Below are positions 2,161-62,253 of a stretch of 64,000 nucleotides of DNA, in pieces. Made by a program: the position numbers and the translations under genes. The stretch covers positions 124,001 through 188,000 of the forward strand of contig BGKB01000069.1 of NCBI GenBank assembly GCA_003116975.1. Reading direction: 5' to 3'. The notes under the pieces were generated by a model. It was not told where the DNA came from. It searched no databases and saw nothing but the letters and a program-made list of their open reading frames with translations. How positions within the stretch are numbered: the first letter of the stretch is position 1; each line of letters begins with the position of its first letter. This DNA is from Aurantiochytrium sp. KH105. Its lineage: Eukaryota; Sar; Bigyra; Thraustochytrida; Thraustochytriidae.

Positions 2161-2576
2161 ATGAAGGGCACCAGAGGCTTCCCGGCGCGTGAACCAAGCC
2201 AGCCATCCGCCGCGCCACGCCGCCCTCGGCCGCGCCCTCGGCCGCCGCTCGCCCGAGCTCGAGCTCGAGATTGCGATTGCGCGCGCGCTCGGCGACCGCG
2301 CGGGCCGCGGGCCGGACGCAGGCGGCGCGGAGAGCGGTTCGCCCGCAGGTTTTCGCGCGGGCGAGTCTGGCCGGGAGGCGAGCGTGCACGCGGCCATCGT
2401 GTCGTGCCGGGTCGGGTACGGTCGGGTCGTGCCGGCCATGCATGCCGCGCGCCGCCAACCCGCGCAGGGCGGAGGGAGCGGGAGGCCGCGCAGGGCGGGC
2501 GCAGCGCGAGGCAGCCAGAGGGCGCTCGCTTGCTCTGGAGGCCGGCAAGCTATCCAGCCTCGAGTCCACTTGGCCG

Positions 2577-29352: not shown

Positions 29353-32300
29353 ATGTCTTCTTCTCCTCAACATGAGGACCTCGCCAACGCGATCGAGGAA
29401 ATCAATCAAGGTAGTTCATCAGTATCGTGCGTGATTATATATCTTTTTGGCTCGAAGGAGCTTCAAGACTGATCCGAAGTAAGCTGACTGACGTATCCCT
29501 CGCTTCAATTCGCTGTTGCAGGCTCTCTTCGAAAAACATAAACGATGACGACACCAAATTGCTCGCCGAGGTTGTCGCGCAGAGTAGTACTTTGGTGGAC
29601 CTGAGGTAAGCCACAATCTTGCCTCAGCAACGAGTCGTATGGCATACTAACAATAAGCTTTCTTTGTGTTCACGAATCTTTTTAGCCTCGAGTGGAACGT
29701 GATTGGCAACGAGGGCGCTCGCTCGTTGACTCAAGCTTTGGAGCAGAACAGATCGCTTGGGTCTCTACTGTAAGTTATACAGCGATTTTCTTCAAGAGTG
29801 CGTGGCGCGATTTGATCTCGGATCACCCAACTGACTTTGATTGCGACCGCAGTCTTACACACAACAACATCACTGAAACAGGGGCAACATATTTGGCTCA
29901 AGCTCTGCGGACCTCAGCTCTACATAACATCAAGTACGTTGGAAAAGCCTGGGCTCTTTCTCATATCATACACACTTCTGACACGCATTTCTAAAATTCC
30001 ACCAGCCTCGCGGGGAATCAGATCAAGGACGACGGGGCATGTGCACTCGCTAATGTTCTGATCGGAAACACTGCATTGCGCACTCTGGAGTACGTTTTAT
30101 CAAAATAAAAATGGAAGGGTCAGGGATTGGGGAGGGGAAATGCGAAAGAATTGCTAAACTTACACTTGTCACTTGGGGTCAAATTTGCACAGTCTCGCAA
30201 ACAATGGGATCTTGCACAAAGGGGCAGTGGCTTTGGCCCGCGCACTGAAACAAAATTCAACGCTCATGATTCTCAAGTACGTTGGTTTGGGTCACGTTAA
30301 GTGTTTGATTCGTTTCGTCGAGGAGCTAGAAAGTCTAACATGCGCATCGTCAGTCTTACCAACAATTCTATTGGCTCTGAAGGAGCGACAGCGCTGGCGA
30401 ACGCCCTGGAAACGAATTACTCGATTCGAAAGCTCAAGTAAGTCAAAGCGTCGCGGATGACAGGTAGTGTTATCCTTGATAACAAGAAATAGCGTTTCGC
30501 AGAGCCTAACAACTTGTGTACAGAATCAAAGAGGACGGCATTCCCCGCAACGTCCTCTCGCGCATCAATTCGTTGCTCAAGCGAAATCAAGCAGGCCCCA
30601 TTATTCCTCCTCGAGATGACGATGAAGCGAGGTGGATGAAGGCAGTGCAAGATGCAGTTGCGCAAGGCGACGAGCACCCGTGGGCATGCATCAAGCTCAT
30701 GATTGTCGGCCGCGGCGCGGCAGGCAAAACATCCTTGGTGCGCTCGCTACTTGGTCGAACGCCCGTGATGGAGCACGACAGTACCGAGGTGGCAAGTATC
30801 TCTCGCACGCGCGCACAAGACTGGCAAGCTCTCTTCGGAGACCACAGCGACTTTGATGAGCAGGTACGCTTTGCTGCTTCGCAACGAGTGCACGGGTCTT
30901 TGAGTGACAGCGCAACACAAGCATCTCCCGCATCGCAAAGCGTGCAGCCGACATCTTCTGTGGAGACAGTGGTACAAGCACCTCACCCATCGCAAAGCGC
31001 CCAGTCGACTTCTTCTGGTGGCGCGACGACGTTCAGACCCGGAGAAGGCGCTTCTGCTGCAAGTGCAACCTTTACAAACGCCAGTCCTGCACCCCCTGCT
31101 CCCACAGTATCACCATCAGCTTATCACAATCCGGCTCCCTCGGACTCGCAACCCATTCTCGTTGCTCCGGAGGAGGTCGCTCGACGGTTCCGCCTGCGAG
31201 CCGAAGACACGACACTCTTGCAAAGCGCGGCTCCCGAGCGAGACGTGAGCTTTTCGATTTGGGACTACGGCGGCCAAAGAGTCTTTTACGCTTTGCATCA
31301 CATCTTCTTGACCTCGAAAGGGCTGTATGTCGTCGTCTTTGACATGCGCGAGCTTCTCGATGTTGACAAGCTGAAAGACAAACTCACGCCGCAAGAGCTC
31401 GCTGGCTTGGCGACACGCGATGAGTCGCTGTGGTTTGTACGGTTCTGGCTGAACAGCATCAAGTTGCATGCGCCCGACGCGTCCGTCGTGCTGGTGGGCA
31501 CGCACAAAGATCAGATCGACGATCTTGAGGAAGTGGACGGTGTGCTTCGCGCAGCTGGCGTAGTTCGTCCGGACTGCAGGCTTGTGCTTCCCGAGAACGA
31601 TCTTCTGTTCTTTGCCGTTGACAACTGCAGTCCTGATGTGAATCGGGCCGAGGCGCTGCGAAAGGCTGTGACGGAGACGGCTACGCAGATGGACCACGTT
31701 CACGACAAGGTGCCTCTGGCATGGCTCAAGATCCGCGAAGACTTGGTGGAAAGCAAAGAGCCGTTCGTACCGATTAAGGAGGTACTGGCGATGGGCGCGA
31801 CCCTGGGACAGTCTCAGACAGACGTGCGCAAGATGCTGGCGTACTTTCACGATGTTGGTGTGGTGGTATACCTGAGTGGGTCGGAAACGCTGGAGCGCGT
31901 GGTGGTGATTGAGCCGCAGTGGCTGCTAGACAAGCTTGCGCGCGTGATTGCAGATGATTTGCATGCGAGAAAGCTGTGGCGGGATCGCCGGCTTCGACTG
32001 GATGGTTTTTTTGAGGCGTACGAGCGTTTGCGCACACGTGCGATTGCCTCGAGGTCGCTCTTGGCGTGGCTTTGGGGTGGAGAGGAGGTGGACTATTTGA
32101 TCGAGTTCATGGAGGCCAACATGCTTCTCTGCCCGTGGAAATTTGACGTGGAGTCCGACGAGGGTCCATTCTTTCTTGTGCCGGCGCTGCTTTCCTTGAC
32201 GAGGCATATCGTGGGCACGTCACAGTTCCAGCGGGGTCTGGCTTGCGAACTGGACTTTTCAGGGTTCTATCTGCCAGACGGGGTCTTTTATCGCCTGGTC

Positions 32301-33332
32301 GCGCAGTGTGCGGTGTATGCAACCCAGCCTGAAGTGTTGGGACCTGGTCTGCCTCCGCGCCCACCAAGTCTTGGGGCGAAGATTGCCAAGGTGTTCTTTG
32401 GAGTGAATCCTTTTCTACTGGAGTTGATTGAAGGGGACAGGATCCGGCTAAGCGTGAGTGTCTCGGCGCCTCGGCCTGCGTTTGTGATCAAGGTTCTTGT
32501 GTCGATGTTCCACAAGCAAGAAGAGACCATGTTTCGCGGTCTGCCGTGGCGATTCCTTTTGCTGGCGCACGGGACTGAGGAGCGTGTAGAGTATAAATGC
32601 ATCCAAGGCGCAATGTCCCCTGGTGCCTCAATCAGGCAAGTTTGGGATTTTGATGAAAGGAATGATTCCGCGATTCCAGTGGAAAAGTTTGCATCTTTTT
32701 TCCAAGAAAAGATCGGGCCGCTTGACACCGATGAAGACGGGGATGCAGTGCCCAAGGTGAAGGCGTTACCTTTGTTGGGACCAAACGTGGACAAACACAT
32801 CTTTTTGAGCCACAAGCAATCGACAGGTGGAGACACTGCCGGTATGCTCAAGGTCAAGCTTGAGAACCGCGGCGTCAAGGTATGGTTCGACCAGTCATAT
32901 ACCCATACGCTGCACCACGACGCGATGCTCGACGGTGTTCGTCGCTCTCAGATGTACCTTCTGGTGTTGACGAAAGATGTCTTTTCAAGTGATGCCGTCA
33001 AGAACGAGCTGCGATGTGCAATCGAGGCTGGTAAGCAGATTGTGCTCGTGCACGAATCCGAGACCCATCGAGTCAGCTTTGCCCCGTTTCACGAGTACAC
33101 TGAGACGGTACCCTATTTTTGCAAGGATTTGTTTACCAGGACCGAGTCTCTCCCCATCCGCCGCAAGTGGTACGAGGAAGACACTTTCTTCTCGGAGCTC
33201 CTCCGTCGCTGTAATCTCAGCGTCTCTTCGGGCGTTGGCAAGCAAGGTTTTGATGATCCTATGGGAGAGTCTCCAGCGGTGCTCGACTTTTCTGAATGCG
33301 ATGTCTTATCAGGAATGTGTCCCTGTTTGTAG
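29353..33332 (+). CDS. LRR-Roc-COR-TIR protein 3 (ROCO family), 8 exons
   Basis: Exons: 29353-29426, 29522-29605, 29686-29769, 29853-29933, 30006-30089, 30193-30276, 30354-30437 and 30524-33332. The product is 1127 residues. Exons 2-7 encode one leucine-rich repeat each, 84 nt apart from exon 4 (81 nt), all phase 2. The last exon has Roc (P-loop GRGAAGKT at 254-261, DYGGQ, GTHKDQ), COR and a TIR domain starting near residue 950 (HIFLSHKQ, VWFDQ, KNELRCAI). A tail of about 37 residues follows the TIR domain, rich in Ser, Gly and Asp and ending in CPCL. Genes 1 and 2 stop just after the TIR domain. The tail could be a prenylation-like end or simply a shifted stop. DNA identity with gene 2 is patchy: almost complete in Roc, low in the second half of COR and TIR. 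Confidence 0.85.
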
Positions 33333-41721: not shown

Positions 41722-43773
41722 TTACTGGACCTGCACGGTTGGACTTGCGCCCACAAAGTCTGTGGCGATTTTATTGCGAGGTGGTGAAGGCGTGTTTGAC
41801 GCAACGGAAGCGGCTGGCCTTGCACTGTCGCGGGCAAGCGGAGTCGTCGATGTTGCTGCTGCTGCTGCTGCTGCTGCATGGCCTCCAGAAAAAGTGCCGT
41901 CGCGGTCATGCGTTTCGTGGCGAGAATAGAGATGGTGTGGTGGATACGAATCGCCGCGTCCCAAATCGTCACGTGTCAATGGGCTGCTCGCAGCGTGTGC
42001 GCCGATGACGCCCGCTCCGCTCGTCGACGCGTCAAAATCGTCATGTGTCGACGCGTGGGTATGCTGCTGCTGCTGATGATGCCCATGAAGCTGAAATCGG
42101 TGTGGCGATGCGTACGGAAATGCCTCGGGCGCCGGTGGCGAGGTGGTTCCAGCAGACGCCCCAAAGCGCGGCGAGATACGAAAGTCTAACGGCCCTGCGG
42201 GTGAGGACGAAGTGTGCGAGAGCGCCGAGCTTGAAGTTGAAGACGAGGCGTGCGCAGCAGCAGCAATGCGACCGGCAGGACCGAGTTGCGCCTCGTTAAT
42301 TTCCTTGTTCAAAAAGGCAATGACATTTTGATTTGACTCGAGCATCTTGTTGCACTCCTCGAGACGTTCTTTGGTCGCCTGAAGTGCGGCGCGAAGCTCC
42401 GCAGACACATCCTTTTCGTTGTCGAGCTGATCCCGAAGGCGAGCTGCGCCTTCGCGCTCGTCTTCAAGGTTGGCCCGCGCGTCCTGAAGGACGCGCTCTT
42501 GCTGGCGAATGACAATGTTCTTGGTACGCACCCTGTCTTTTGATTGTCGCACCTCGGCTTGGAGAGTTTCAATGACGCCATTGCCCTTGTTGATTTCCTT
42601 GATGCTAAGTTCCAGTTTGCGCTGCAGCTTGGCTGACGAGGCCTTGTAGTGGTTCATCTTGTCCTCTACGGCTGCTCTACGGTCTTGCGCCTGCTCGAGC
42701 ATGGCTGCCGTCTTTGCCAATAGGTCTTCCTTGTCTTCGAGCTGTTGCTTGAGCGCAGCCATGGTCAGTTGCTGTTCGCTCACCTTCTTTTCGAGATCGT
42801 ACACGGCGCCTTCGAGTTCGCGGTTCGCCTTGCGAAATCGATCGAGCTCCGAGGTGCCATCCTCGGAAAACTTTTCAAGCGATGCATTCTTGATTTTCAT
42901 CTGCTGCAGATCCGCGTCGACCGCGGCCTTGGCCTCGTACAGTTTGCGGTGCTCAATCTGCAGCGCCGAGAGCTGCGACTCGAGTTCGGAAATGCGTCGG
43001 TCGGCGGTTTCCTGCTGTTTGCGAGCTTGCTCTGCAGCAGCGTTTTGCGTCTGCGAAAGCAGGCGCAAAGACTCTTCCTTTTGGCGCGCAAGCGTCTCGG
43101 CGTGCGCGCTCAAGAGCTTTTCTGCGCTCTTGTCAAGGTCTTCGCGCAATCGCAACGTCTCACGTTCGGCCTCGCCTAGTTTTGCCTCGCGCTCGAGCGC
43201 GGCGGTTTCCAACGCTGAAATGCGTGCCGCACGCTGTGCAGACTCATGTTGTGCACGGCGAAGTCTGCTCGCCAAATAAGATTTGATAGAGGCGTCTGTG
43301 CCCGGCTGAAAACGCAAGGCCAAGTGCGTGAGCTGCTTGAACTGATTGGCCTCGACAATTTTAAAGGACGGAAGACCTGCGAGGTCCAGCACGGCAATGA
43401 ACTTGCCGGCATTGAGCTCGCCGCTCTGGCCACGCTGACACGCGGCCAAGAGCTCGACGAACTTGGGCGCGAACCCAGCAAAGTCGACCAAGAGGCTTTG
43501 TTCCTGTTTGAGTTCGTGGTACTCTTCCTCGGAGACTTGCAGCGTGTACAAAAAGTACAAGTCGTCCTCGCGCGTGACCTCCATGTGCAGTACGGCGACA
43601 TGCGAGTCCTGGAGCGTCTTCTTCACGCCGCGCACCACGCGCAGCGTCAGTTCGGTGGTCCGAGCGCCCTCGCTGCCCTCCACGGCATGGCCCCCTTGTG
43701 CAGGCGCGCGTTCGACACGAACGGGCACGGTGCCCTCGAACACGGGCCGCTCGCGGTCCAGCTCCACGGACAT
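41722..43773 (-). CDS. SASS6: SAS-6 centriole cartwheel protein
   Basis: A 683-residue protein from ATG 43773; the frame is open upstream to a TTG at 43959, but only this ATG gives the family start. The N-terminal globular head (about residues 1-150) carries SAS-6 hallmark segments: LHMEVTREDDLYFLYTLQVSEEEY, LLVDFAGFAPKFVELL and FKQLTHLALRFQPGTD with IKSYLA. A long parallel coiled coil (about 165-500) follows. The C-terminus is His, Ser, Gln and Pro-rich and disordered, with a (GCT)-type Ala run encoded by a CAG-like repeat near 41855. SAS-6 heads form nine-fold rings that template the centriole cartwheel, so the organism builds centrioles or basal bodies. Single exon, complete. Confidence 0.92.
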   Translation of the reverse strand: MSVELDRERPVFEGTVPVRVERAPAQGGHAVEGSEGARTTELTLRVVRGVKKTLQDSHVAVLHMEVTREDDLYFLYTLQVSEEEYHELKQEQSLLVDFAGFAPKFVELLAACQRGQSGELNAGKFIAVLDLAGLPSFKIVEANQFKQLTHLALRFQPGTDASIKSYLASRLRRAQHESAQRAARISALETAALEREAKLGEAERETLRLREDLDKSAEKLLSAHAETLARQKEESLRLLSQTQNAAAEQARKQQETADRRISELESQLSALQIEHRKLYEAKAAVDADLQQMKIKNASLEKFSEDGTSELDRFRKANRELEGAVYDLEKKVSEQQLTMAALKQQLEDKEDLLAKTAAMLEQAQDRRAAVEDKMNHYKASSAKLQRKLELSIKEINKGNGVIETLQAEVRQSKDRVRTKNIVIRQQERVLQDARANLEDEREGAARLRDQLDNEKDVSAELRAALQATKERLEECNKMLESNQNVIAFLNKEINEAQLGPAGRIAAAAHASSSTSSSALSHTSSSPAGPLDFRISPRFGASAGTTSPPAPEAFPYASPHRFQLHGHHQQQQHTHASTHDDFDASTSGAGVIGAHAASSPLTRDDLGRGDSYPPHHLYSRHETHDRDGTFSGGHAAAAAAAATSTTPLARDSARPAASVASNTPSPPRNKIATDFVGASPTVQVQ

Positions 43774-44363
43774 GGTCTGGCCCTTCTCTGCCTCCTTCCC
43801 GCGCGCGCCGCTCTCCGTCTGCGCGCTCGCTCGGCCCGAGGCGAAAGGGGGCCGAGTCCGGGTCGAGTCAGCCGGGCTCGGGCGGTTTTTCCGGTCTGGG
43901 TGATTGATTGATTGACTTCCCACTTGTTGACATTTTTTTCCCGCCGCCGTCTCGCACAATCAACCTAACGACCACGCTCCCAGCGCAGCAAACTGCGACC
44001 CGTAGTAGGTGGGGCCTAGCCTGCCTGACAGTGAGGCTGGTGAAGCAGCATGACCCCGAGGGAAAATCTGTGCTTGGACTTTGGGGACGCAACGGGACCG
44101 ACTGTCCTGCGAGCGAAGCTGTGCCCATGCCCATGCCCATGCCCGTGCAAGGTCGGAGGTGGAAAGCAGTCATGCCGCCACATGTCGGGGCTACGGACCA
44201 CGTCGTGTTGCTTTGGTGGTTTGGGGAAAAGAACAAAAGCAAGGAAAGCGAAGGAAAGCGTAAAAAAGGTAAGGGGGTTCAAGTAGTTCTACAGTCGAGG
44301 AGGGTGTCCTGTTGCATTGCATCTTCATGCCCGCAAGATCTCGGGGCTTACTTGCAAACGTAT
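43774..44363. other. Intergenic region upstream of SAS-6
   Basis: It lies between the SAS-6 start and the stop of the four-TM gene, both on the minus strand, so it should hold the SAS-6 promoter and the 3' UTR of the upstream gene. A short (CCCATG)n run occurs near 44125-44145. No supported gene. Confidence 0.5.
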
Positions 44364-49112: not shown

Positions 49113-52100
49113 TCACTTTCGTTTCGTGACTTTTTGATCCAGACGATGCTTGAGCGTATTAATTGATGTCTTCACCCCGTCCTCACCCGTCTTTGCGTCC
49201 TTTAGCAAATTAGCGCGTTTGAGGGCTCGATACTTGATTGCCTTTTTGAATTCTCCATAGGTTCGCAAAGTGTGAATCATCTCCCTGGCGTGAGCGAATA
49301 CGGCGGGTGGCAGACGAGCGTCCTTTCGCTGATAGACGTACAGTTCATGCAAAATGATCCCTCTCAAGTCCTGTAATAACGAATCACCAGGCTTGGACGG
49401 CACGTTCAAGGTGACTCCTTCCTTTTCCAATTCACCAGATTTCACACCTTTCAATGAACTCGAGTCTGCATCATTTTGCAGATCGAGGATCCGAATCGCA
49501 GGCTCTTCACTCATGAACACCACCTCGGTGTCATGCGATGACCCACTTTCTCCCTCCGCCACAGCCTCAACTATAGCCTCTTTCACATGTCTTGCATCTC
49601 TTGACTTTGCTGCCATCGCCGACAGTGATGCCGACAACGACGATGCTGATGTCGATGACACCATGTCCGGTCGTGTCCTAGTCACACTTTCAGCATGACT
49701 CTCCACGCGTGGACGCTTTTGCTCATTTCGGAATGCTGTCGTCCCTTTACTGCTCGCGCTCGCATTCGTGAGAGCCAAAATAGAGTTTCGGCTTTCGTCG
49801 CGTGGTCGCTTCTCGTTGCGAATCGGCTCGTCAATGTCGTTTTGTGCAAGGCTTTTCTCACACTTTGCCTCTGAGCCGCTCTTGCCGCCTGTAATTGAAC
49901 CCGAGACAGTCTCCGGTTTACTTTGAGTTTGCAAAAGCTTGCGAGCGCATTTCGCATCCTCTCCCCGGAGTACAAGCACGACACCCCTGGCACCTCCATC
50001 CTGGCCATTTCGAACGAGAATAACGCGAGAATCAAAGTCTTCAAAGATGCTAGCTTCCAGCATGCGTGAGAAATCATTGGATGATTCCTCGAGCTCCACG
50101 AATTCAGGCATTGACTTTACCATTCCTCGCAATGGATAATGCATGGTGCGATTTTCAGGGGAAATCCGTTTCGCAGCGAGGTCCTCAAGTACTTTTGCAA
50201 TATATTGATTCTCCGCCGATGGGCGCAAGACCGCGCCGCGGGAGTCTGCAAGCTCGTGCAGCAGTGCACTTTGCGGATCATGTGCAAGAATGGCGAGGCA
50301 GAGCGCAAAGAGCTCCAGACCATCTACGGAATCGTACCTTTTCCGGAGTCCGTCGAGTTCATGCAGGCCAGCCCCTGTCGTGCCTTGCGTCCACCATACA
50401 CAAAGAAGCTGCTCCAGCGCCTCAATTCGCACTTTGTCTTGAAGTCCCTGGAGCGCCGCGGTCCATCTTTGCTCTTCAGGAGCGGTTTTCGCCGACCGCC
50501 TCGCATTCAGCACCAAAATCAGAGGCTTTCGCACAACCTGATGCGGAGTCAACGTGCTCGCTGCAGTTGCCCCCTTTTCTAGCGCGTACTGTTCAAGACC
50601 GCTCTTGCATGCAGAAATTGCTTGCGCCACGTCTGCCCAGCGCGTTGCTGCGCGAGCGTAGTAGGAAATCGCACAAGCTAGAAAGTGACGGGCCTTGTCA
50701 TAAAAATTCTGCAAGAGGAGACTCAGCGCAGACCAAGTCGCCAACTCTGCATTGAAAGCCTCCTCGACAGCTTGAACGCAGGATCGTAAGTCCTCGTTGC
50801 GCATTGAAGCACGGACCGCCATAAAGCTGGTCTGTGATATTCCCAGCCGTTTTGCAACCTGGTCAAAGTCATCCATTGCTGATTTCGTTTTCTGGCGCGA
50901 AGTTTCCAGAGAAGTGTTGTCCTGCAGCGAAGTGGCTGCAGCAAAGGCTACCTGACGAGCATCTTGAACTTGCGCAAAATCAGCATCGGCCGCTATATAA
51001 GAGCGCTGCTCTATTCCGTGACGACTCAAAAAGTACTGCTTCCAAAACGCCATGCACTCGGCACCAGTGCACTGAGACTTTTTTTGCGCCTCGATAGCAA
51101 TGATCTCCAGCTGATCGAGCGTGGAGCGGTCGTCGCTGCGAATATCCTCGTTTCTCGTGGAAGTCTTGAAATCGTCGAGACGCTGCCTCGTATACATATA
51201 CTTGGAAAGAGGATCTCGGCATCGATTTTGTAAGCAGATGAATTCAATCAGATCAAGCGGTAGGCCCTGCTCTCTTTGGCCGTGCACTGCTGTACGAGCA
51301 CGCCCCACTGTAACAGCGAGTTGCTCGACACGTAAAAGGGCAGAACTTTTATCCACTTCATCAGCGATGGCTCTAGCAACGTCCCAGGGTCGACGCGTAT
51401 CGACCTTGAGACGACGAAAAAGACTTTGTGCTTCGCCTTCTGTTCGCACCTGCAAGGTGTAAAGGTCGACAAGTGCTTTGCACGGAAGTCTGAGCTCGTT
51501 GAGCCACACATTGGCAATGGTCGAATGGGCCATAAAGTCGAGAAACGTCGCAGTCTTCAGAAAACCCCTTTCACGAACGAAGCGAAGCGTCTCAATCACG
51601 CCCAGGTCAGCAGGCGAGATGATGCCGTTTGCTTTGCAGAGCATCATGGACAACGCGAGGGCTGTTGCATCGTCTTTTGCAGTAGAACACGCAAAGCGGA
51701 GCGCAAGGCGAGGAGAATTCGCGCAGCTTGATTGATCATCTACAAAGCGCCCCATCTCGTTGCCACCCACGACGTGCGATGGAAGAGGAGACTCTGACCT
51801 GCTGACGGAACGCAGAGCAGGTGATGGGACTGGCTCGACCTTTTGCTCAGACGCCGAAAGGCCTTTTGGCGAAATCGATACTGCTTTTTCATCCCAGATT
51901 TTTGATAGGGCGTCAAACGAGTCATGGCGTGCAGTTATCTCCAGACGACCGCGATAGCAGTTTTTCTCGGCGTCCTTTCTCAGTGTACAATCCGTCACAC
52001 AAAAGGGACTCTCGCGATTTCGAAGCACTCGATTGATTGTTTCTGCAAAATCAGGAGTCGACAAGCGCTCCATCGTCGCTTCAAGAGAAACGAGAAAGTA

Positions 52101-52514
52101 ATTTGTCTTGGTCTTCTTTTTGATGGGCTTGTCAGGCGCGTGTTCGGGGCAAACGGAATTGCTCCCTCGGCCTTTGGGCTGAAATTCGAAGATGACGGCA
52201 GCCTTGCGTTCGCCAGGTCGTGAGGCACCTTGAAAGGCCTCTTGAACAAATTTGACAATGTGCGTGGCTTGCCGCCGGTTTGATATTGTTTTGCTCGAGG
52301 GAAACTCCCGCCGGCCGTGCTTCGAGTACTCTTCCTCGGCCGAAGCACGAAAACCGCTGTCTTCTCCATCTCTTGTCGAATGCTGCTCATTCGAGTCGTC
52401 ATCGGCTTCCGGAACCTTTTGGCCATCGTACGTTCTTACGCTTGAAACCGACTCGTCGTCGTCGTCGTCGTCGCGGCCGCCGCTGCCGCGAGCGCAGCTC
52501 CCGTGTTCGTCCAT
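49113..52514 (-). CDS. Core-less paralogue of the GREB1-like protein
   Basis: A 1133-residue protein from ATG 52514. It opens with an acidic DDDDDDE run. Residues ~50-650 match nothing I know; they are mainly helical, with a possible small mixed domain at 60-200. Residues ~660-890 (PLILVLNA, RIEALEQLLCVWW, GLELFALCLAILAHDP) clearly resemble residues ~10-240 of the larger minus-strand gene upstream (PLVLVLNA, RVEALPQLLRVWW, GLDLFALCLWIIIRD). After a Ser/Lys-rich linker, the last ~75 residues are one copy of the module that ends that protein (KDARLPPAVFAHAREM ... INTLKHRLDQKV). The helicase and glycosyltransferase between these parts are absent. Partial duplication with loss of the catalytic core is the simplest reading; a regulatory partner or competitor of the larger protein is conceivable. 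Confidence 0.75.
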   Translation of the reverse strand: MDEHGSCARGSGGRDDDDDDESVSSVRTYDGQKVPEADDDSNEQHSTRDGEDSGFRASAEEEYSKHGRREFPSSKTISNRRQATHIVKFVQEAFQGASRPGERKAAVIFEFQPKGRGSNSVCPEHAPDKPIKKKTKTNYFLVSLEATMERLSTPDFAETINRVLRNRESPFCVTDCTLRKDAEKNCYRGRLEITARHDSFDALSKIWDEKAVSISPKGLSASEQKVEPVPSPALRSVSRSESPLPSHVVGGNEMGRFVDDQSSCANSPRLALRFACSTAKDDATALALSMMLCKANGIISPADLGVIETLRFVRERGFLKTATFLDFMAHSTIANVWLNELRLPCKALVDLYTLQVRTEGEAQSLFRRLKVDTRRPWDVARAIADEVDKSSALLRVEQLAVTVGRARTAVHGQREQGLPLDLIEFICLQNRCRDPLSKYMYTRQRLDDFKTSTRNEDIRSDDRSTLDQLEIIAIEAQKKSQCTGAECMAFWKQYFLSRHGIEQRSYIAADADFAQVQDARQVAFAAATSLQDNTSLETSRQKTKSAMDDFDQVAKRLGISQTSFMAVRASMRNEDLRSCVQAVEEAFNAELATWSALSLLLQNFYDKARHFLACAISYYARAATRWADVAQAISACKSGLEQYALEKGATAASTLTPHQVVRKPLILVLNARRSAKTAPEEQRWTAALQGLQDKVRIEALEQLLCVWWTQGTTGAGLHELDGLRKRYDSVDGLELFALCLAILAHDPQSALLHELADSRGAVLRPSAENQYIAKVLEDLAAKRISPENRTMHYPLRGMVKSMPEFVELEESSNDFSRMLEASIFEDFDSRVILVRNGQDGGARGVVLVLRGEDAKCARKLLQTQSKPETVSGSITGGKSGSEAKCEKSLAQNDIDEPIRNEKRPRDESRNSILALTNASASSKGTTAFRNEQKRPRVESHAESVTRTRPDMVSSTSASSLSASLSAMAAKSRDARHVKEAIVEAVAEGESGSSHDTEVVFMSEEPAIRILDLQNDADSSSLKGVKSGELEKEGVTLNVPSKPGDSLLQDLRGIILHELYVYQRKDARLPPAVFAHAREMIHTLRTYGEFKKAIKYRALKRANLLKDAKTGEDGVKTSINTLKHRLDQKVTKRK

Positions 52515-53217: not shown

Positions 53218-53667
53218 TCAGTTCTTCCTTCCGGTGACCGCTCGATCAAGCTTCTGCTTTAAAGAGTTGATGGCCCGCTTCAACTCCGCTTCGTTACCGT
53301 CCGATGGCAGCAGAATTCCCGCTCGCTGCAAAGAAGAAAGACCAAGCGATCTTTTGAAGTTCCCATATATCGGAGACATCTGCAATAGAGTTCTTGCATG
53401 ATCATAGAACCTAGGTGGCAGCCGTGAGTCTTGGTCATCGAGCAGTGGACGAATGATGCCTTGAACTTGATCCATTGGAAGCTCTCCAGGTTTCTGGCTC
53501 GGCGAAGGGGGTACGATTGCATGCTGGTGATCTGCTCGGGAAGAAGTTGCAGACTGCGGTCTTGATGTGCGCTCAGGTAGATGCTCGCTCGTTGTCGATA
53601 TTTTCGCTCCTCGGTCTACAGAAGCTGGGGCCGAGACGTTGGCTGGCTGAGACGAGTCTACTGAGGC
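53218..53667 (-). pseudogene. In-frame continuation of the GREB1-like gene beyond a TAA
   Basis: Directly after the TAA at 53670-53668, the same frame stays open for 149 codons to a stop at 53218. The first 64 codons are a Ser/Pro/Ala linker like those between the modules upstream. The last 85 residues are a further module copy (DSRLPPRFYDHARTLL ... INSLKQKLDRAV), closest to the terminal module of the neighbouring 1133-residue protein. The parallel linkers read GExxAxSSS where this one has GE-stop-ASxxSS, so the TAA looks like a nonsense change in once-coding DNA. Alternatives are readthrough, a sequencing error, or a 57-nt in-frame intron at 53717-53661 (GTAAAT ... CTCAG) whose removal would fuse both parts. 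Confidence 0.7.
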
Positions 53668-56600
53668 TTATTCTCCATGTGACTTTGGGCTCTGCGCAAG
53701 CCTTTCATGGTATTTACTTTTCACAAATCGGTTAAACCTCTGCTTGAGTGCATGGATGGCCTTAATCATATCCTCCTGTTCACCGCTCGGTAAGATGCCA
53801 GCTTTCTGCAAAGTTCGAAAACTCGTGGCACTTACGAACTCTGCCAATGTGGCCGATGTTTCCAGTTTCTTCATTGCATAAGTATAGAAACTCTCTGGCA
53901 GATGTGTGTATTTGCCTTTGAATTCCGCGAGCTGTGCAAGGACAGCAACGCGCACGGCCTCGATTGGAATGTCCTTCGACGGTCGCCCCGGTGAGCTTGA
54001 GTTGTATGGTATTGCTGATGGGGCCACGGGTGCAGGAGTTGGAGCCGGGGCGTTGGCTTGCTGGGACGAGATCGATGTGGCAGGAACAAGACTCTGTGAT
54101 TCTTCGACCTGACCAGACAAAATTTGTCTCGCCCTGAGACTCGCTTTCAGAGCATCAATACTTTTTTTCAAAGTATCCTGATCCACACCTGCTAATGTCT
54201 CGTCTCGCTGCGACTGTCGGTATTTCAACCTTTCCGTCAAGTCAGAAATGTTACTGCAGCTTCCCAGCGAATCGCTCACATGTCTGTAGAACTTTCCTTG
54301 GAGGCGCATGTGCTTGACTTCATACGACTCGATCTTCTTTCGTGCGTCTTCAATGGACGGATCGGGAAATGGCGGACGAGGCCGAGACGGGGTCATTGAT
54401 GATGAAGCTGCGCGCACTTCTCCTGACTGAGCGGACTGCTCCACGTAACCTTGTTTCGCTCGTACAAACCTCTGCTTGAGTGTACTGATGGCTTTTTTCA
54501 TATCCTCCTGTTCACCGCTCGGTAAGATCCCAGCTTTCTGCAAAGTTCGAAAACTCGTGGCACTTACGAACTCTGCCAATGTGGTTGATGTTTCCAGTTT
54601 CTCCTTTGCGTAAGTATAGAATCTCTCTGGCAGATGTGTGTTTTTGCCTTTGAATTCCGCGAGCTGTGCAAGGACAGCAGCGCGCACGGCCTCGATTGAA
54701 ATGTCATTCGACTGTTGGCGCGGCGAGCGTGAGTTGTGCGGTGGTGTTGATGGAGTCGCAGGTGCAGGAACCGGAGACGGGACGTTGGCTTGCTGGGACA
54801 AGATCGATGTGGCAGGAACACGACTCTGTGCTTCGTCGACCTGACCAGAGAAACCTTGCATCGCCCGGTTTAGTCTTGCTTTCAGAGCCTCAATGGCCTT
54901 TTTCATGGCATCCTGCTTCCCACCTGGCAATATCTCGTCTCGCTCCAGCTGTCGGTATTTCAACCTTCCCATCAAGTCTGAAATGTCACTGCAGCTTCCC
55001 AGCAAATCGCTCACATGGCTGTAGAACTTTCCTGGAAGGCGCATGTCCTTGGCTTTGAACAATTCGATCTTCTTCCGTGCGTCTTCAATAGACGAATCGC
55101 GAGGTGTTGGAGGGGACTGAGGCAAAGGCATCGATGACGAAGCTGCGCGCACTCCTCCTGGTTGCGTGGACTGCTCCACGTAATCTCGTTTCGCTCGTAT
55201 AAGCCTCACCTTGATTGCATTGATTCCTTTCTTCATCTCTTCTTGTTCACCATCTAGCAAAACCTTATTTTGCTGCAACGCTCTGAAGCTGATGCTGGCC
55301 ACGAAATCCTCCCAGGTTTCGCAGCTTTCCAATAAGTCAGCAGTATGGCTGTAAAACTTCCCGGGAAGACGGGTATCTTTGGCTTGCGCCATTTCCAGCT
55401 GAGCGCGAAGAAACTCTCGCGCGTCTTCCATCGGTATACTGGCAGGGTTTGGGCTCGGTGAAGGATGTGTGGGAGATTGAGAAAAGTGTTTTTCCTCTCT
55501 CTGGGAGGACAATGACGGCATGGAGGGCATTTCTCTAGGTTGGGACTCATGGGCAGCCTGATCACGAGAGGCTTGCGAGTTTTCGGAGCCTGACTCTTGC
55601 GTTCCTTGCGATGCTTGAGGACGATCACCAGGGCCAGTCTTCCGTGACTTCTTGGAGGATGTGCTATCCGAACTCAAGTCAGTCTTTCGTTTCGTATTTC
55701 CGTCAGTGGACGAGCTGCTCGTGTTGTTATCTCGCTTCTCGTTTTCGGGAACGCCGTGTTCACCGAGACTAGGTTTTGGCTTCTTAAGAGTCGGGTTGAC
55801 TTTCGTTCCGCTTTCTCGCTTTGTCACTTTTTCACTAACGCTTCCCGGTGGTAGCCTGTTCGGGGCGTGCGGTTTCAGACCTTCGGAGTGCTCGGTATTG
55901 AGGGCAGGGGATACAGGTGCTTCCATGTGAGATCTGCCCCCCGGTGCCTCTAAAAGTGAAGAGGAAGGCAGATCAGCGTTGGCCCCAACAACGAAAAGTT
56001 GCATCGGGAATGGATTCTGAACTCGCGACTTGCGATAAATCTTAAGCTGTCTATTTCCGCGCAAGAGATTGATACCATCGTCTGCATCGCCAATCTCAGG
56101 AAACGCATCGATGTCGTCATCGCGGACTATGAGCAGCAGATTCGACAGTTCTCCAGACGTTCGCACCACGATTCGATTATATGCATCATCCCGGGAGACC
56201 TCCAAAAAGCACGTTAGCAACGCATTTGAGGGCGTCACACCAGCCTCACCAGAGATTCGATCCCAGAACTCCGCAGCCCATAGTTTATTTTGCTCGAAAA
56301 ACGTTGGCATCGTCTTCGACCAGAGTGGCGCCGGCCTCAACCCCCCCTTCAATTTGCCAAAATGATCCAGCGCCTCCGAAAGGTCCGTAAAGCATGGCGT
56401 CAACGCAGCAGCCCGCTCCCTGATCTTTCTCGCACTCAGCTTGAGGTTCTTCTTGTGATGAAAGAAGCGATTCACCTTGAGGCAGACCAAGCCAGCCTCA
56501 TCAACCAGGTGATTGAACTCCACGTCTTCCCAAAACGTCTTGACCGGGAAAAAGACTCCGGCGTTCACTGTGCTCGTGACATTCAGGTAGACGAACGAGT

Positions 56601-59600
56601 ACACCGAATACGTGACCATGAACGGATGCACGGACTCTGTTTGGCGGGCCCGGGGGTCACGACGGATCCCAATCAGTCCGTACTGATTTGCACCTCCTGT
56701 CAGCTCCCCTTTGGAACGTACATTTCGATTGCTCGCTTCAGGAGCTGGCCTTTTCCGAAGCACGGGCCCATTGGGCTTCCACTTCTTCATGCGTTTCTGC
56801 TGGTGTGCTTCGGTGTGTTCTTCATCCTCGTTGTGCACAATACTCTCGACGCCTGTCATAACCGTTGAGAAAGTGCACGCATCTGGGTGAGCACTCAGTG
56901 CATGTGTCGGGACTTTGTCCTCAAGCTTCCGCTCATAGCACACATCGACGTTGTCGTCGAGGATCCAGACCCAGGGAAGGCCGAGCTGATGCGCCGCAAG
57001 CTGGATGAACAGCCGAGCATATCCGATGCCACCTCGATCTGCATACACACGAGATCCTTCCGAAGTCTTGGACGCCATCGATTCCGGAAGACCGAGAATA
57101 AGATGAGCGGATCCATACGCCGCTACGTAGTCATCGAATTGCTTGCCACTCCGGACCACGAGGCACACGACAGTTGGCTTGCTGCTATCGTCTCTGGGTA
57201 TCGCCTTTTCGTAGTCCACGAGCGCAATGCCAGCACGGTTGTACGAGGGCACGAACACCCAACGAACGGATGTGGCATCATCCAACGTTCTCATGGTTCG
57301 CGTCTCCGAGGACGGACTCACGTTGAGGAGCTTGCGATGCCCGACATTGATCTGCATGTTGCGACCATCCTCTTCGAGGTTCAGGCCATGGAAACCAGCA
57401 TAGGGTGCAGACAAGCAGACACCCTCGTCTACAAGCTTGACATCCTTGACCACGTACTGCTTGCGGTGGTACTTATCGGTAAAGCCTGATGATGTGGATC
57501 GAGCAGCGACGCTCTCATAAGCATTCGCTGCTTTTATCGACTGCGTAAACCTGTCAGCCTCGCCGTCTTTAGGCTGATCCATGCGTCCGCGTCGAGACCC
57601 GGCATCCCAGAGCTGACGTTGAACGTGCTCACGTGCAATGCGTACTCGATGTCCCAACGATGTGCCTGTTTTTTTTTCATGCTTGTCCAAAATGTCACGA
57701 AGCTGAGCCGTGTCGTTTTGGAGAAACGATTTTGCGGGAGTATCTCCTTCTCTGGAAGAAAATCGACCGTCAAAGTCGATACAGTCGAATGCGAGTTGAA
57801 AGTTCGTACACCGAGAACCATCAAAAGGAGCACCGAGCTCTTCGACTGTCTTATCGAGCTCTTCAATCTTGTCAAGACCCGCCCTCGAGACAATAGCCTC
57901 GCCATCTTCGTCAACCAAGTAGTCGCGATATGCCTTGTACCAGCCAGATCCATTCTCACTCGCAATGATGAGTGCAAGCGTGCGTTGTTGCAAAACACTT
58001 GCGTGGTATTGGCCCTTATTAGGCATCGCGTAGGAGCTTCTAAGTGCTGGAAAGCCGGGCGATTGAGCGCTGACAATGAGGTTCCTCCAGTGCGGCAGAG
58101 TCCACTCTGCCCGCGCAACCAGCGGAAGCGCATCAGGAGGCGTTGGAATCGCAATCTCCACGCGCTCCTTGAGCAAACGCAGGAAATGTAGATATGTCCC
58201 GGTCTTGCCCTGCTGACACTGCGCCATGAGCAAGAGACGACGTGGATCAAAGCCACCACTGTGCCCGCTGTCGTAGTGAGTAGCTTGCCAACTCGTTTGT
58301 GCACTTCTTGATCGGTAAGCATCAATGCCATGCATCGGATTGATGACGACTTTCTCTTCTTCAATGGTTTCGACTCGAGGACGGGATGCTGCGGCAGCGC
58401 GTCTCGGCCCAGAAGACAAGTACAGATCAAGTGGACCAGGAATGCACTGATCAATGCGCTGAAGTCCTTCCGCATCACGATACTTGTGCTCGATTGCCTT
58501 TTGCAGCTGCGCGTTGTATCTCTTTGCGTTCATCAGCACCGTCGGGAGCACATGTACGTAGCGCTTCACTGTCCACGTGCCGAATCGCGCCCGTCCATAA
58601 TCGCGTTTATCCCAGGCCTTCTGGAAACCGGACTTGAGCTGCAGCTCTGAATCGGCGTGAAAACGCACCTCATTGCCCGGGTCCATAACGGCATAGCTCC
58701 CGCCTTTGGCAAAATACCTTCTCACTTCAGGATCCTTGAAGAATCGCTCGAGCTGTTGTTCAAGCGCCGTCCAGCCCTCCTCTTCCTCAGAGACCTCAAA
58801 GGTGACTGCACTGCTGGAGTCAAGGCCCGGATAGCGGCAGACGCGACCGAACTCTTGCACAAACGTCGAGTGCACCTTTGATGAGCGCAGACGGATGTCA
58901 AGGAAGCGAAATGAGTGCGGAAAGGTGTCACCCAAGCGCCCCTTCTCGCACATGATCACGATGGTGGGCAAGTTCTCCAGGTCCTCGTACTTGGCTGTTT
59001 TCTGGACAGCTTTAGAAGGTAAAGGACGAGATCCTTCTCTGAGATGTTTCCATGCCTCAGCCTCCTGTGCTCGTGCCTCAGCCTCCTGTGCTTTTGCCTC
59101 AGCAAAAGACTTATTCACGCGGTCAACAATGGTCTCGCGCTCAGTTCTCGCCACGTCCTGCTTGGAAGGATGCCGCAGGTCGCGTGTCAGTGTCCATGGC
59201 TCGATCTGGGTGAAAAGATTTGTCGCGCGTTGAGCAACCTTTTGCACCTCCTGGCCTCCAAACATTCGCTTCTTCCCATCGCTGCCACCAACATCTGCAA
59301 CAACGCTGAGAAGGCCGCCATGGTCGTCACTGGTGAGCCCTAGCTTTTTCAGTGCACTACGGAGACAGTCTTCTATCGAGAGGTTCTCGTCCGTCTCGTA
59401 GACGCGAATGACAGCCATGCGTCCTGTTCTGTACTTGGGATGGACGTCGAGCAGGTCGTGCAAGAGACGATCGGTCTCGTTGTACCACGACTGGGATGTG
59501 TTGCTTTGCGATTCCGTGCGATCTTCGCGGTTGCGTTCCAGTTTCTCAGAGATGATATACTGCCAAGCGAATCGCCAATGCGCAGGCGTATCAGGATTTT

Positions 59601-62253
59601 CTGCTATTGCAAGACTCTTTGCTTCTTCGACCCATTCTGTGTTGAACCGACTCATCAGGGTCTTCCATTCGGCCACGTCCAGGTTGCTCAATTCAGACCA
59701 TGCTGATCTTACGGTCGCCTCGAGAAGAACCTTGAGAAGGTGTTGAACGGAGGCTTCTTCAACGCCATCAGCGATCTCGAAACGCCCCACTTCTTTGTCT
59801 GTTTCGTGGACAACACCTGGCCATACTCTATCTGCAAAGCCAAGGTGAAGAGCAAAGGCCTTGAGCATCTCATCGTCAAGGGCAAGTCGCCTCACATCAT
59901 TGTCCTCTAGGGGTGCAAAAATATCGTCGCGGTCGTCCTTCACCCAGAGATTGCCATGGTCAACCCGATACACCGCAAGATATGTGAGCGAGAGAAGGTA
60001 GTCTGCCATGATGATGTGACCATCATAGAGAGGAGTTGATTCGGCCACCTTGATTCCCTTTTGCTTACGCTTTTGATGTCCTCGCTTGCCAAACGACCTG
60101 TTTGCGAGTCCACGTACGATATCAAAGGCCTCATCTTTGAGTACACGCTGACGTCGACGTGGAAGACAGTCCACAACATGATTGTTGCCGGATGTGTCGC
60201 AAAAGAGTGGGATACTCGATGCACCAACTCTGTATTTTGGCTGTCGTTGTCCTTCCAGTGCAAGTTGTCGTGCCGAGTTGATGCGTGCACGATCGAGCCA
60301 GAAACCGAGCCAGCATAGAAGACCCCTATCGTCGAAGTTCTGGTCAAAGTTGAGGTCAACATCATGAGGAACGACCAGCAACAAGCTCTCCTTGCCACCT
60401 TGAACCGAAATCAGCTCACTTGCCAAGCTTGGGCCCAGCTCCTTGTGCACCCTGCGATTGAAGACACTGCAGAACGCTCTGTAGTCGTGCATCGGATACC
60501 GGTATGTGCAATCTTCATACGTGGTCACACGCGGGTCCACATCATAAATCTTCCCATTGACCGCGAGTCTCAGCGGCCGTACGTAACTTGGTACCGCCCA
60601 CGTCGCCGTCTCGACGTAGTAGTCCATGCTGCGGTACATCGAGGCGGGCTTGAACCACTGAACGATGTTCTTGTCGGCGATTCGTGAAGTCTCAGAAAGT
60701 ACGTTCTGCGGCGTTGCAGAGACAAGCAAGCGAAGCACATTCTCACCACTCAGCGCTGGGTTATTAAGAAGCCAGTCGTGTGCGCCATATTTCGTCGGCG
60801 CAAAGTGACAATCGTCGGCGATGATGACAAAGAGAGTCTTTGGGTTCTTGGCCTCCTCTTCCATCCACTCTCGGTGCGCGTTCATAGCCGCATGCGGTAC
60901 CTTGGTGTGCTTGAGCACGCGTCCGCCCTCGAGCTTTGCGCGTGCGACTCTGTCTGCAGTCTGGGACTGCAGGGAGTTAAAGTTTGGTGTAAGCACGACG
61001 AAAGAAATGCTGTCGAACTTGGACGTCCAGTCTGCGTCTGAATGACCAAAGAGGGCCAGCTCAGCCCTGCGAAAGACTTCTTCGGCGATCTCGCGTTGCT
61101 CAGGATGCGCAACATCAGGCTGTGGCGTGCCGACCCACTTGCGAAGCAGGCTCTGCTCCTGAAAGGCATCGCTCTCGACGTGCAGCTTGGCACGCATCAG
61201 CGCCGGTTTTTCTTTGACGTCAAGCTCGTTGTCACGTTCTTCGTCAAGCTTCATTGAGATATGATCGCGAAAGTCTTGTGCAAGAGACAAGCCAAAGCTT
61301 GCAATCTCGCGAGTCACTTGTTCCCAAGCTCTCTCTGCGTGTGCGCCTGCGGAGGTGAGCAGCGACTTTGCGAACGTCTGACGCCATTCCAGCTCGATCT
61401 CGAAGCAAGGTCTGATGAGCTCGATGGTTCCTTCTTGGCCATTCACTTCTTCGTTTGAGCTGTATACGATGAAGACGATTTCTACAAGCCAATATGAAGT
61501 TACGTTGCCATCGGATATGTTGCCCCCGAATTCTGTCTCGTCACCAGCTTCTTCAGCAATGTCCACCAAGTCTGAGATTTTTTGACTCGATTCGAGAAGA
61601 CCACGAATAGTTCGAGCTGTTTCAGGTAATGTGAACACGAGAAGAACACATTGCGAGGTATCGCCGACTAAATCGCGAAGGAGTATGACACGAATATGCG
61701 GAGCACTAGTCCTTTTCAGTTCTGCTCGAAGCTGAGCTGGCAGATCCTCGGACTCGTCAAACTCAATCAAAGAAGTTTCACACTCTGCCTCATTTTCGTG
61801 CGAGACTCTCAATGATTCTACGGATCGAGAAGCTGTTCTCGACACAAGGTCCCTAAGAGTCTCCACAATGTCCTTGGTACGCTCAGATGCGACAATCTCT
61901 GCACTCTGCCCATCTTGACGTACGCGAAGTAGATCACCGGGTGTGTCTCGAATGATAATCCAAAGGCAAAGAGCAAAGAGATCAAGTCCTTGTCCTTGCG
62001 GGTATACGTGTCTGAGACCAGCAACATTGTCCAACCCAAAATTCGGCAGATCGCCGTCTTCCGCGTCAGGAATCCACCATACTCGTAAAAGTTGCGGGAG
62101 CGCCTCAACTCGTACGTCGTTTTGCAGCACTCTTAGAGCCTCTGGACTGTTCTCGACCTCTTCTTCGAAACTCGTCGCCGAGTCTGCGTTAAGCACGAGC
62201 ACAAGTGGCCGGTCGAAGCTCTCCCTCTGGGCTACCGCGTCCTCGCTCGCCAT
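53668..62253 (-). CDS. GREB1-like protein: circularly permuted SF2 helicase plus TAGT-type glycosyltransferase
   Basis: A 2861-residue single-exon protein from ATG 62253; an upstream in-frame GTG at 62304 is not used as start. Order: a domain shared with the neighbouring paralogue (about 10-240); helicase motifs Ia-like FVVLTPNF (near 421), II-like DDCH (near 479) and III SATP (near 512); motif V-like VIMCEKGRLGDTFP (near 1105) and VI QEFGRVCR (near 1130); then the Walker A strand RRLLLMAQCQQGKTGT (about 1336-1351). Motif I after motif VI is the circular permutation described for GREB1. Next is a glycosyltransferase-like domain with ILDDNVD near 1763-1769 and downstream FWEDVEFNHLVDEAGL. A Ser/Lys-rich nuclear-type linker follows, then five ~75-residue modules from about 2275 to the end. 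Animal GREB1 is a chromatin cofactor reported to glycosylate the estrogen receptor. Substrate here is unknown. Nuclear location is inferred. Confidence 0.85.
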   Translation of the reverse strand: MASEDAVAQRESFDRPLVLVLNADSATSFEEEVENSPEALRVLQNDVRVEALPQLLRVWWIPDAEDGDLPNFGLDNVAGLRHVYPQGQGLDLFALCLWIIIRDTPGDLLRVRQDGQSAEIVASERTKDIVETLRDLVSRTASRSVESLRVSHENEAECETSLIEFDESEDLPAQLRAELKRTSAPHIRVILLRDLVGDTSQCVLLVFTLPETARTIRGLLESSQKISDLVDIAEEAGDETEFGGNISDGNVTSYWLVEIVFIVYSSNEEVNGQEGTIELIRPCFEIELEWRQTFAKSLLTSAGAHAERAWEQVTREIASFGLSLAQDFRDHISMKLDEERDNELDVKEKPALMRAKLHVESDAFQEQSLLRKWVGTPQPDVAHPEQREIAEEVFRRAELALFGHSDADWTSKFDSISFVVLTPNFNSLQSQTADRVARAKLEGGRVLKHTKVPHAAMNAHREWMEEEAKNPKTLFVIIADDCHFAPTKYGAHDWLLNNPALSGENVLRLLVSATPQNVLSETSRIADKNIVQWFKPASMYRSMDYYVETATWAVPSYVRPLRLAVNGKIYDVDPRVTTYEDCTYRYPMHDYRAFCSVFNRRVHKELGPSLASELISVQGGKESLLLVVPHDVDLNFDQNFDDRGLLCWLGFWLDRARINSARQLALEGQRQPKYRVGASSIPLFCDTSGNNHVVDCLPRRRQRVLKDEAFDIVRGLANRSFGKRGHQKRKQKGIKVAESTPLYDGHIIMADYLLSLTYLAVYRVDHGNLWVKDDRDDIFAPLEDNDVRRLALDDEMLKAFALHLGFADRVWPGVVHETDKEVGRFEIADGVEEASVQHLLKVLLEATVRSAWSELSNLDVAEWKTLMSRFNTEWVEEAKSLAIAENPDTPAHWRFAWQYIISEKLERNREDRTESQSNTSQSWYNETDRLLHDLLDVHPKYRTGRMAVIRVYETDENLSIEDCLRSALKKLGLTSDDHGGLLSVVADVGGSDGKKRMFGGQEVQKVAQRATNLFTQIEPWTLTRDLRHPSKQDVARTERETIVDRVNKSFAEAKAQEAEARAQEAEAWKHLREGSRPLPSKAVQKTAKYEDLENLPTIVIMCEKGRLGDTFPHSFRFLDIRLRSSKVHSTFVQEFGRVCRYPGLDSSSAVTFEVSEEEEGWTALEQQLERFFKDPEVRRYFAKGGSYAVMDPGNEVRFHADSELQLKSGFQKAWDKRDYGRARFGTWTVKRYVHVLPTVLMNAKRYNAQLQKAIEHKYRDAEGLQRIDQCIPGPLDLYLSSGPRRAAAASRPRVETIEEEKVVINPMHGIDAYRSRSAQTSWQATHYDSGHSGGFDPRRLLLMAQCQQGKTGTYLHFLRLLKERVEIAIPTPPDALPLVARAEWTLPHWRNLIVSAQSPGFPALRSSYAMPNKGQYHASVLQQRTLALIIASENGSGWYKAYRDYLVDEDGEAIVSRAGLDKIEELDKTVEELGAPFDGSRCTNFQLAFDCIDFDGRFSSREGDTPAKSFLQNDTAQLRDILDKHEKKTGTSLGHRVRIAREHVQRQLWDAGSRRGRMDQPKDGEADRFTQSIKAANAYESVAARSTSSGFTDKYHRKQYVVKDVKLVDEGVCLSAPYAGFHGLNLEEDGRNMQINVGHRKLLNVSPSSETRTMRTLDDATSVRWVFVPSYNRAGIALVDYEKAIPRDDSSKPTVVCLVVRSGKQFDDYVAAYGSAHLILGLPESMASKTSEGSRVYADRGGIGYARLFIQLAAHQLGLPWVWILDDNVDVCYERKLEDKVPTHALSAHPDACTFSTVMTGVESIVHNEDEEHTEAHQQKRMKKWKPNGPVLRKRPAPEASNRNVRSKGELTGGANQYGLIGIRRDPRARQTESVHPFMVTYSVYSFVYLNVTSTVNAGVFFPVKTFWEDVEFNHLVDEAGLVCLKVNRFFHHKKNLKLSARKIRERAAALTPCFTDLSEALDHFGKLKGGLRPAPLWSKTMPTFFEQNKLWAAEFWDRISGEAGVTPSNALLTCFLEVSRDDAYNRIVVRTSGELSNLLLIVRDDDIDAFPEIGDADDGINLLRGNRQLKIYRKSRVQNPFPMQLFVVGANADLPSSSLLEAPGGRSHMEAPVSPALNTEHSEGLKPHAPNRLPPGSVSEKVTKRESGTKVNPTLKKPKPSLGEHGVPENEKRDNNTSSSSTDGNTKRKTDLSSDSTSSKKSRKTGPGDRPQASQGTQESGSENSQASRDQAAHESQPREMPSMPSLSSQREEKHFSQSPTHPSPSPNPASIPMEDAREFLRAQLEMAQAKDTRLPGKFYSHTADLLESCETWEDFVASISFRALQQNKVLLDGEQEEMKKGINAIKVRLIRAKRDYVEQSTQPGGVRAASSSMPLPQSPPTPRDSSIEDARKKIELFKAKDMRLPGKFYSHVSDLLGSCSDISDLMGRLKYRQLERDEILPGGKQDAMKKAIEALKARLNRAMQGFSGQVDEAQSRVPATSILSQQANVPSPVPAPATPSTPPHNSRSPRQQSNDISIEAVRAAVLAQLAEFKGKNTHLPERFYTYAKEKLETSTTLAEFVSATSFRTLQKAGILPSGEQEDMKKAISTLKQRFVRAKQGYVEQSAQSGEVRAASSSMTPSRPRPPFPDPSIEDARKKIESYEVKHMRLQGKFYRHVSDSLGSCSNISDLTERLKYRQSQRDETLAGVDQDTLKKSIDALKASLRARQILSGQVEESQSLVPATSISSQQANAPAPTPAPVAPSAIPYNSSSPGRPSKDIPIEAVRVAVLAQLAEFKGKYTHLPESFYTYAMKKLETSATLAEFVSATSFRTLQKAGILPSGEQEDMIKAIHALKQRFNRFVKSKYHERLAQSPKSHGE
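53735..55431 (-). repeat. Five tandem ~75-residue C-terminal modules
   Basis: Coding repeats inside the GREB1-like gene, starting (minus strand) near 55431, 55095, 54700, 54355 and 53970. The consensus features are an Ala/Arg-Lys start, KDxRLPxKFY, a Leu-rich helix, a R-x-LQ step, GEQEDMKKAI and LKxRxxRA. Modules 2 and 4 share ARKKIE...RLxGKFY...SDLxGSC, and modules 3 and 5 share VLAQLAEFKGK...LPExFYTYA...SATSFRTLQKAGILPSG. A two-module block was therefore duplicated. Confidence 0.85.

Follow-up and report, generated by a model that had tools for sequence, protein, structure and literature searches.

The locus considered here raises the question of whether a GREB1-like protein from a protist is still a working helicase and what the glycosyltransferase joined to it modifies. 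The gene, referred to below as gene A, lies on the minus strand of a window of 64,000 nucleotides from Aurantiochytrium sp. KH105 (contig BGKB01000069.1, here C69, positions 124001-188000), within an assembly of 76 Mb. Its product can be assigned with virtual certainty as a circularly permuted superfamily 2 (SF2) helicase domain, cpSF2-GREB1, joined to a TET/JBP-associated glycosyltransferase domain, TAGT. An evenly balanced case can be made that gene A is one of six clustered cpSF2-TAGT paralogues that share the GREB1 core module and act as motor-guided glycosyltransferases. Its features are as follows (aa, amino acids).

53668..62253, minus strand: GREB1-like gene A, one uninterrupted open frame of 2861 aa
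61564..62253, minus strand: N-terminal family-specific domain, aa 1-230, without a Pfam match
58162..61113, minus strand: cpSF2-GREB1 domain, aa 381-1364 (Pfam, 368.9 bits, E-value 8.2e-110)
60949..60993, minus strand: motif Ia-like segment LTPNFNSLQSQTADR, aa 421-435
60802..60825, minus strand: motif II, IIADDCHF, aa 477-484 (DDCH, 480-483)
60703..60723, minus strand: motif III, VSATPQN, aa 511-517 (SATP, 512-515)
58918..58950, minus strand: motif V, CEKGRLGDTFP, aa 1102-1112
58834..58857, minus strand: motif VI, QEFGRVCR, aa 1133-1140, with its two arginines kept
58192..58254, minus strand: relocated motif I, GFDPRRLLLMAQCQQGKTGTY, aa 1334-1354
56440..57282, minus strand: GT-A-like core of the TAGT domain, aa 1658-1938 by fold match (Pfam match, aa 1666-1802)
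56944..56967, minus strand: WILDDNVD, aa 1763-1770 (ILDDNVD, 1764-1770), putative DxD-like site for metal and uridine diphosphate (UDP)-sugar
56515..56532, minus strand: WEDVEF, aa 1908-1913, candidate catalytic ED motif
53671..55461, minus strand: C-terminal tail, aa 2265-2861, five repeats of about 85-100 aa each

Domain organization

The frame is read from its first in-frame ATG (62253-53671) and ends at a TAA stop (53668-53670). A Pfam profile search, set beforehand as a check on an initial annotation of this DNA, matched both expected families above their curated cut-offs: cpSF2-GREB1 (PF20692) with 368.9 bits against 26.2, over profile positions 2-704 of 716, and TAGT (PF20691) with 41.0 bits against 27.5 (E-value 3e-10), over positions 3-121 of 205 only. 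GREB1_N, GREB1_2nd and GREB1_C gave no match in the window protein at an E-value of 1 or below. The motifs that the initial annotation had picked out (DDCH, SATP, CEKGRLGDTFP, QEFGRVCR, GFDPRRLLLMAQCQQGKTGTY and ILDDNVD) all occur in a single minus-strand frame and follow one another as it stated. Along the protein the order is Ia-II-III-V-VI-I, followed by the glycosyltransferase motifs DDN (1766-1768) and WED (1908-1910), all positions being taken from the sequence. The placement of motif I C-terminal to motif VI confirms the permutation, and the proposal of a permuted SF2 helicase followed by TAGT thus agrees with the two Pfam matches, the motif order and the GT-A-like model described below.

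Helicase motifs and predicted fold

All 12 copies found in this genome (see below) keep the Lys and Thr of motif I, the Asp and His of motif II, the SAT of motif III, the GR..GDT of motif V, the arginines of motif VI and the DD pair of the glycosyltransferase. They differ at the catalytic Glu of motif II, which is present in ten of the 12 (DECH) and is Asp in gene A and its allele (DDCH); at motif V the same two copies have Leu and the remaining ten have Met. The consensus of motif I is AxxGxGKT, and gene A carries Gln at the position of the first Gly. The initial description of the motifs as complete-looking therefore stands for GKT, SAT and the two arginines of motif VI, but not for motif II, where a DDCH box that had been counted as kept has Asp at the catalytic position.

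Because Asp replaces the catalytic Glu, ATP hydrolysis by gene A is doubtful. On its motifs it makes the weakest case in the family for an active ATPase, and it probably binds ATP but with slow hydrolysis or none. We consider ATPase activity likely for the family and somewhat less than an even prospect for the copy in the window; the claim of an active motor is therefore better made for the DECH paralogues.

Structural alignments of the predicted cpSF2 model are compatible with a permuted RecA fold, although they are weak, and the equally weak aligned ranges point to a position of the GKT segment within the first RecA sheet. Structures of SIS, PurE and TIR proteins headed these alignments and were taken as generic Rossmann-type matches rather than as kin, while the alignment with RIG-I indicates an SF2 shape at most. 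Sequence searches for solved relatives, made with the coral-like protein P0007 and with a profile of A1, gave none that was useful.

Glycosyltransferase domain

The predicted TAGT model falls in the GT-A-like fold class by fold match. The DD pair and the Glu of the ED motif are present in all 12 copies and the Asp of the ED motif in ten, with Asn in the other two (gene E). Judged by these residues the glycosyltransferase of gene A is intact, and we think it probable that the enzyme is active. One point weighs against activity: the best fold match lies in a section of LH3 that we take to be non-catalytic, which reduces the likelihood accordingly. TAGT also occurs in bacteria, as PF20691 was above cut-off in a control genome, that of Bacteroides ihuae.

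Comparison with known GREB1 proteins

A motif census was drawn from 240 retrieved proteins aligned with the 12 copies of this genome. The vertebrate set (112 entries) was retrieved through motif I, so the presence of that motif is selected. The coral-like set consists of 120 listed proteins of 191, including the query P0007; 13 of the 120 bear an organism name, all of stony corals. Its query spanned motifs V, VI and I, leaving motifs II and III and the glycosyltransferase residues as the unselected ones. Nine coral-like rows have gaps at motif II, probably through truncation, and the glycosyltransferase motifs are gapped in three to four.

Three entries from Hondaea fermentalgiana (P0001-P0003), named 'GREB1-like protein', have the two domains and motifs of gene A. 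In the stretches that match, copies of genes E and F share 94.7-99.5% of their residues with the two halves of P0002; P0001 and P0003 are less close to copies of A, B and C (76-87% for gene A over the stretches listed). On these identities the genome should be that of H. fermentalgiana or of a relative. Both P0002, with 4793 aa, and P0001 seem to fuse adjacent genes into one model, and each counts as one copy in the census. Motif II, which is DDCH in gene A, occurs four times in the three Hondaea entries and is DECH each time. The catalytic Glu is found in three of three Hondaea entries and in five of five others (P0004-P0006, P0127 and P0128), although in one of the latter, P0005, Gln takes the place of the second motif VI arginine.

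Vertebrate GREB1 resembles the window protein in its order of cpSF2-GREB1 and TAGT, in the GKT of motif I with its HPRRLLL lead and in the DD pair (111 of 112). The likeness around Walker A noted at the outset is real, since vertebrate GREB1 P0239 aligns in the same columns, including the HPRRLLL lead. GREB1_N, GREB1_2nd and GREB1_C are present in vertebrate P0132 and were not reported for the window protein. Within the helicase, all 112 entries have the Lys and Thr of motif I (query-selected), and 109 have the first of the motif II residues, Asp; the catalytic Glu has become His in 109 and remains in one, SAT has become TSF in nearly all, the GR of motif V is EP in 97 and DP in 14, and the arginines of motif VI are replaced by Leu (112) and Tyr (111). 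The ED motif of the glycosyltransferase has His for Glu in 95 entries and Asp for Glu in 13. As judged from these alignments, motif I is the only helicase motif left intact in vertebrate GREB1.

Among the 120 coral-like proteins listed, nearly all keep the helicase and glycosyltransferase motifs, with the Glu of motif II in 110 of 111 ungapped rows and both motif VI arginines in 120 of 120 (query-selected). Many differ from the window protein, for which no ankyrin repeats were reported, in carrying such repeats. Because these proteins keep nearly all motifs, the helicase residues appear to have changed in the line leading to vertebrates and not in animals as a whole. The suggestion that the animal protein had lost several motifs is borne out for vertebrates (motifs II, III, V and VI in the 112 entries) but does not extend to animals overall. 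For vertebrates the census fits the description of the GREB1 helicase part as without catalytic activity in a passage of a review (PMC6163654); in the members from protists and in the coral-like ones the residues of the ATPase motifs are retained. Stony corals have many GREB1-like proteins, several apparently on a single contig (for example, four Oculina entries).

In a midpoint-rooted tree of 41 chosen sequences the thraustochytrid copies group with Hondaea (ultrafast bootstrap 98) and are joined to P0004, P0127 and P0128 (100), while corals (100) and vertebrates (100) are each separate, the latter on a long branch. Pattern scans of viral contigs gave 150 cpSF2 and 16 TAGT matches, and those of GTDB contigs 184 cpSF2 matches; none was confirmed by tblastn, and distant relatives are missed by such scans. 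A literature search found no paper on thraustochytrid GREB1, the species tables of Iyer et al. (2013) and Shin et al. (2021) lying outside its coverage, and, among the titles listed, no work on coral GREB1. Both Pfam families and the Hondaea 'GREB1-like protein' were already known; this genome adds a catalytically complete variant of them that has expanded and undergoes gene conversion.

A clustered gene family

A search of the genome found at least 27 matching stretches, which, excluding tail repeats and a companion open reading frame (ORF), leave at least 12 copies, a lower bound since the best 17 of 33 candidates were scored. Position and identity lead us to take these for six genes, each on two haplotypes: A and B on contigs C69 and C138, C on C15 and C196, and D, E and F on C96 and C182. 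A separate search with TAGT gave 12 places, every one inside these copies. Outside the genes C69 and C138 are 91.6-96.9% identical over long stretches (84.5% in one stretch of 1.3 kb), which is consistent with haplotypes. The copy of gene C on C196 (L021) has a TAA within its N-terminal stretch.

The ratio of nonsynonymous to synonymous substitution rates (dN/dS) is below 1 in every computed pair and region. It is 0.28-0.50 in nine of 12 pairs, dS being saturated in the other three, and between the alleles of gene A it is 0.35 over cpSF2 and 0.34 over TAGT. Divergence along the gene, measured as uncorrected synonymous differences in windows, is 0.018 and 0.030 between the A alleles in the two opening windows, which extend to residue 353, and 0.43 in the last. 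From residue 1233 onward gene A resembles gene B, its neighbour on C69, more closely than it does its allele in eight of eight windows; on C138, A and B differ by 0.008 in window 2371-2532 and by 0.562 at the 5' end. Because divergence is so uneven and gene A is nearer to its neighbour B than to its allele, gene conversion between neighbouring copies is the reading we adopt.

The number of C-terminal repeats varies between copies, with five in gene A before its stop. Two further stretches downstream are related to the gene.

53218..53667, minus strand: in-frame continuation past the TAA, 149 codons, with a sixth repeat and an ending common to the allele; its translation is at most possible
49113..52514, minus strand: companion ORF of 1133 aa that combines the N-terminal domain with one C-terminal repeat

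The allele of gene A (L013, 8960 onward) has a TAG at a different place, after which the frame runs on to the same ending. Either the last repeats have been lost twice or the stops are read through, and loss is favoured. The companion ORF has no Pfam match at an E-value of 0.01 or below and no helicase or TAGT match. Genome-wide, the N-terminal domain was found at 14 places and nowhere else, namely in each of the 12 copies, in the companion ORF and in the allele of that ORF. The C-terminal repeats likewise occur only in the family genes, the companion ORF and its allele, as far as the repeat query reaches, since it matched more divergent tails weakly or not at all.

Possible function

In most members the two RecA lobes would bind and hydrolyse ATP, and use of ATP may move the protein along nucleic acid, chromatin DNA or RNA, or clamp it there. 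Such a motor could position the UDP-sugar-dependent glycosyltransferase beside its acceptor, the likeliest being a Ser or Thr of a nucleic-acid-associated protein, and the C-terminal repeats and N-terminal domain may bind partners. Passages in PMC12645433 and PMC10908778 report that animal GREB1 O-GlcNAcylates the oestrogen receptor. Because of this report, and because a DNA route has no convincing TET/JBP enzyme in this genome, a protein is by analogy somewhat favoured over a DNA base as the acceptor.

Glycosylation of modified DNA bases, as initially proposed, would require a dioxygenase to hydroxymethylate T or 5-methylcytosine (5mC), whereupon the motor-tracking protein would add the sugar much as JGT does in making base J. 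The name of TAGT itself recalls an association with TET/JBP, JGT of kinetoplastids is presumably a TAGT-type enzyme, and we know of no cpSF2 partner for it. JGT acts on 5-hydroxymethyluracil in DNA by glucosylating it, according to a passage in PMC11065753, which also states that metazoan JGT homologues were predicted to be inactive; the hypothesis of base modification is set out in part of PMC4111573. Against this, the best Tet_JBP match in the genome scored 19.4 bits against a cut-off of 34.9, in a search where no control genome rose above the cut-off and which thus lacked a positive control. The match is a frame at L009 7-1965 (plus strand), with a likely allele in L010, whose weak Tet_JBP similarity (16.6 bits by hmmscan) and HxD-like stretch could mark a divergent 2-oxoglutarate/iron dioxygenase; this candidate pair has no PDB match by sequence. 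A DNA_methylase search gave three places above cut-off, of which L033 and L034 were read, the third being likely the L034 allele. Both carry a CFT motif, which we take to be a DNMT2 signature, and because both look DNMT2-like the presence of 5mC in this DNA is doubtful. Base glycosylation is thus weakly supported, and we regard it as improbable.

We rate as equally improbable a defence or self/non-self system in which an expanded, recombining family would sense foreign nucleic acid through its SF2 part and mark targets with sugar. The clustered expansion here and the several entries per contig in corals suggest such a role, as do the gene-converting neighbours, the varying repeat number and three Roc-COR-TIR genes in the same window. 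Relatives of those genes are common in the genome, however, which makes proximity a weak argument, the dN/dS values all lie below 1, and the RIG-I alignment does not go beyond general SF2 shape. Gene A alone might instead be a decaying pseudo-helicase paralogue, serving only as a glycosyltransferase or scaffold on the way towards a vertebrate-like state or loss. The Asp of motif II and Leu of motif V, common to both alleles, point that way, and so do the separate stops that shorten the repeats in each allele and the TAA in the C196 copy of C; the long open frame, the other counted motif residues and the dN/dS between the A alleles argue for a gene still under constraint, and we consider decay unlikely, if less so than the two preceding explanations.

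A wider reading joins several of these elements. The ancestral GREB1 module would have been a working ATP-driven nucleic-acid motor with a glycosyltransferase, of which vertebrate GREB1 is a pseudo-helicase relic; clustered, variable-tailed families would have arisen independently in thraustochytrids, where they are gene-converting, and in stony corals, and would recognize nucleic acid of foreign or mobile origin and add sugar to that nucleic acid or its proteins. We offer this as speculation, less probable than any of the foregoing. The motor-guided glycosyltransferase that we propose for the family bears on GREB1 more widely, as that protein has been studied as a hormone-receptor cofactor and reported as a protein glycosyltransferase. 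The protist family offers possibly active homologues, in long uninterrupted frames, with which the contribution of the motor to sugar transfer can be studied, and a DDCH gene beside DECH paralogues provides a natural comparison.

Neighbouring genes in the window

21654-24101, 25880-28609 and 30516-33332, plus strand: three Roc-COR-TIR genes in tandem
41725-43959, minus strand: protein with a SAS-6 N-terminal domain (E-value 1.4e-25)

A genome search with Roc-COR-TIR gave at least 82 matching stretches (the best 50 of 219 candidates were scored), which indicates a large ROCO-TIR family in this protist. A link between these genes and the GREB1-like family was dropped, since their relatives are so numerous. 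The matching stretch at 30498-33209 of the window holds one TAA.
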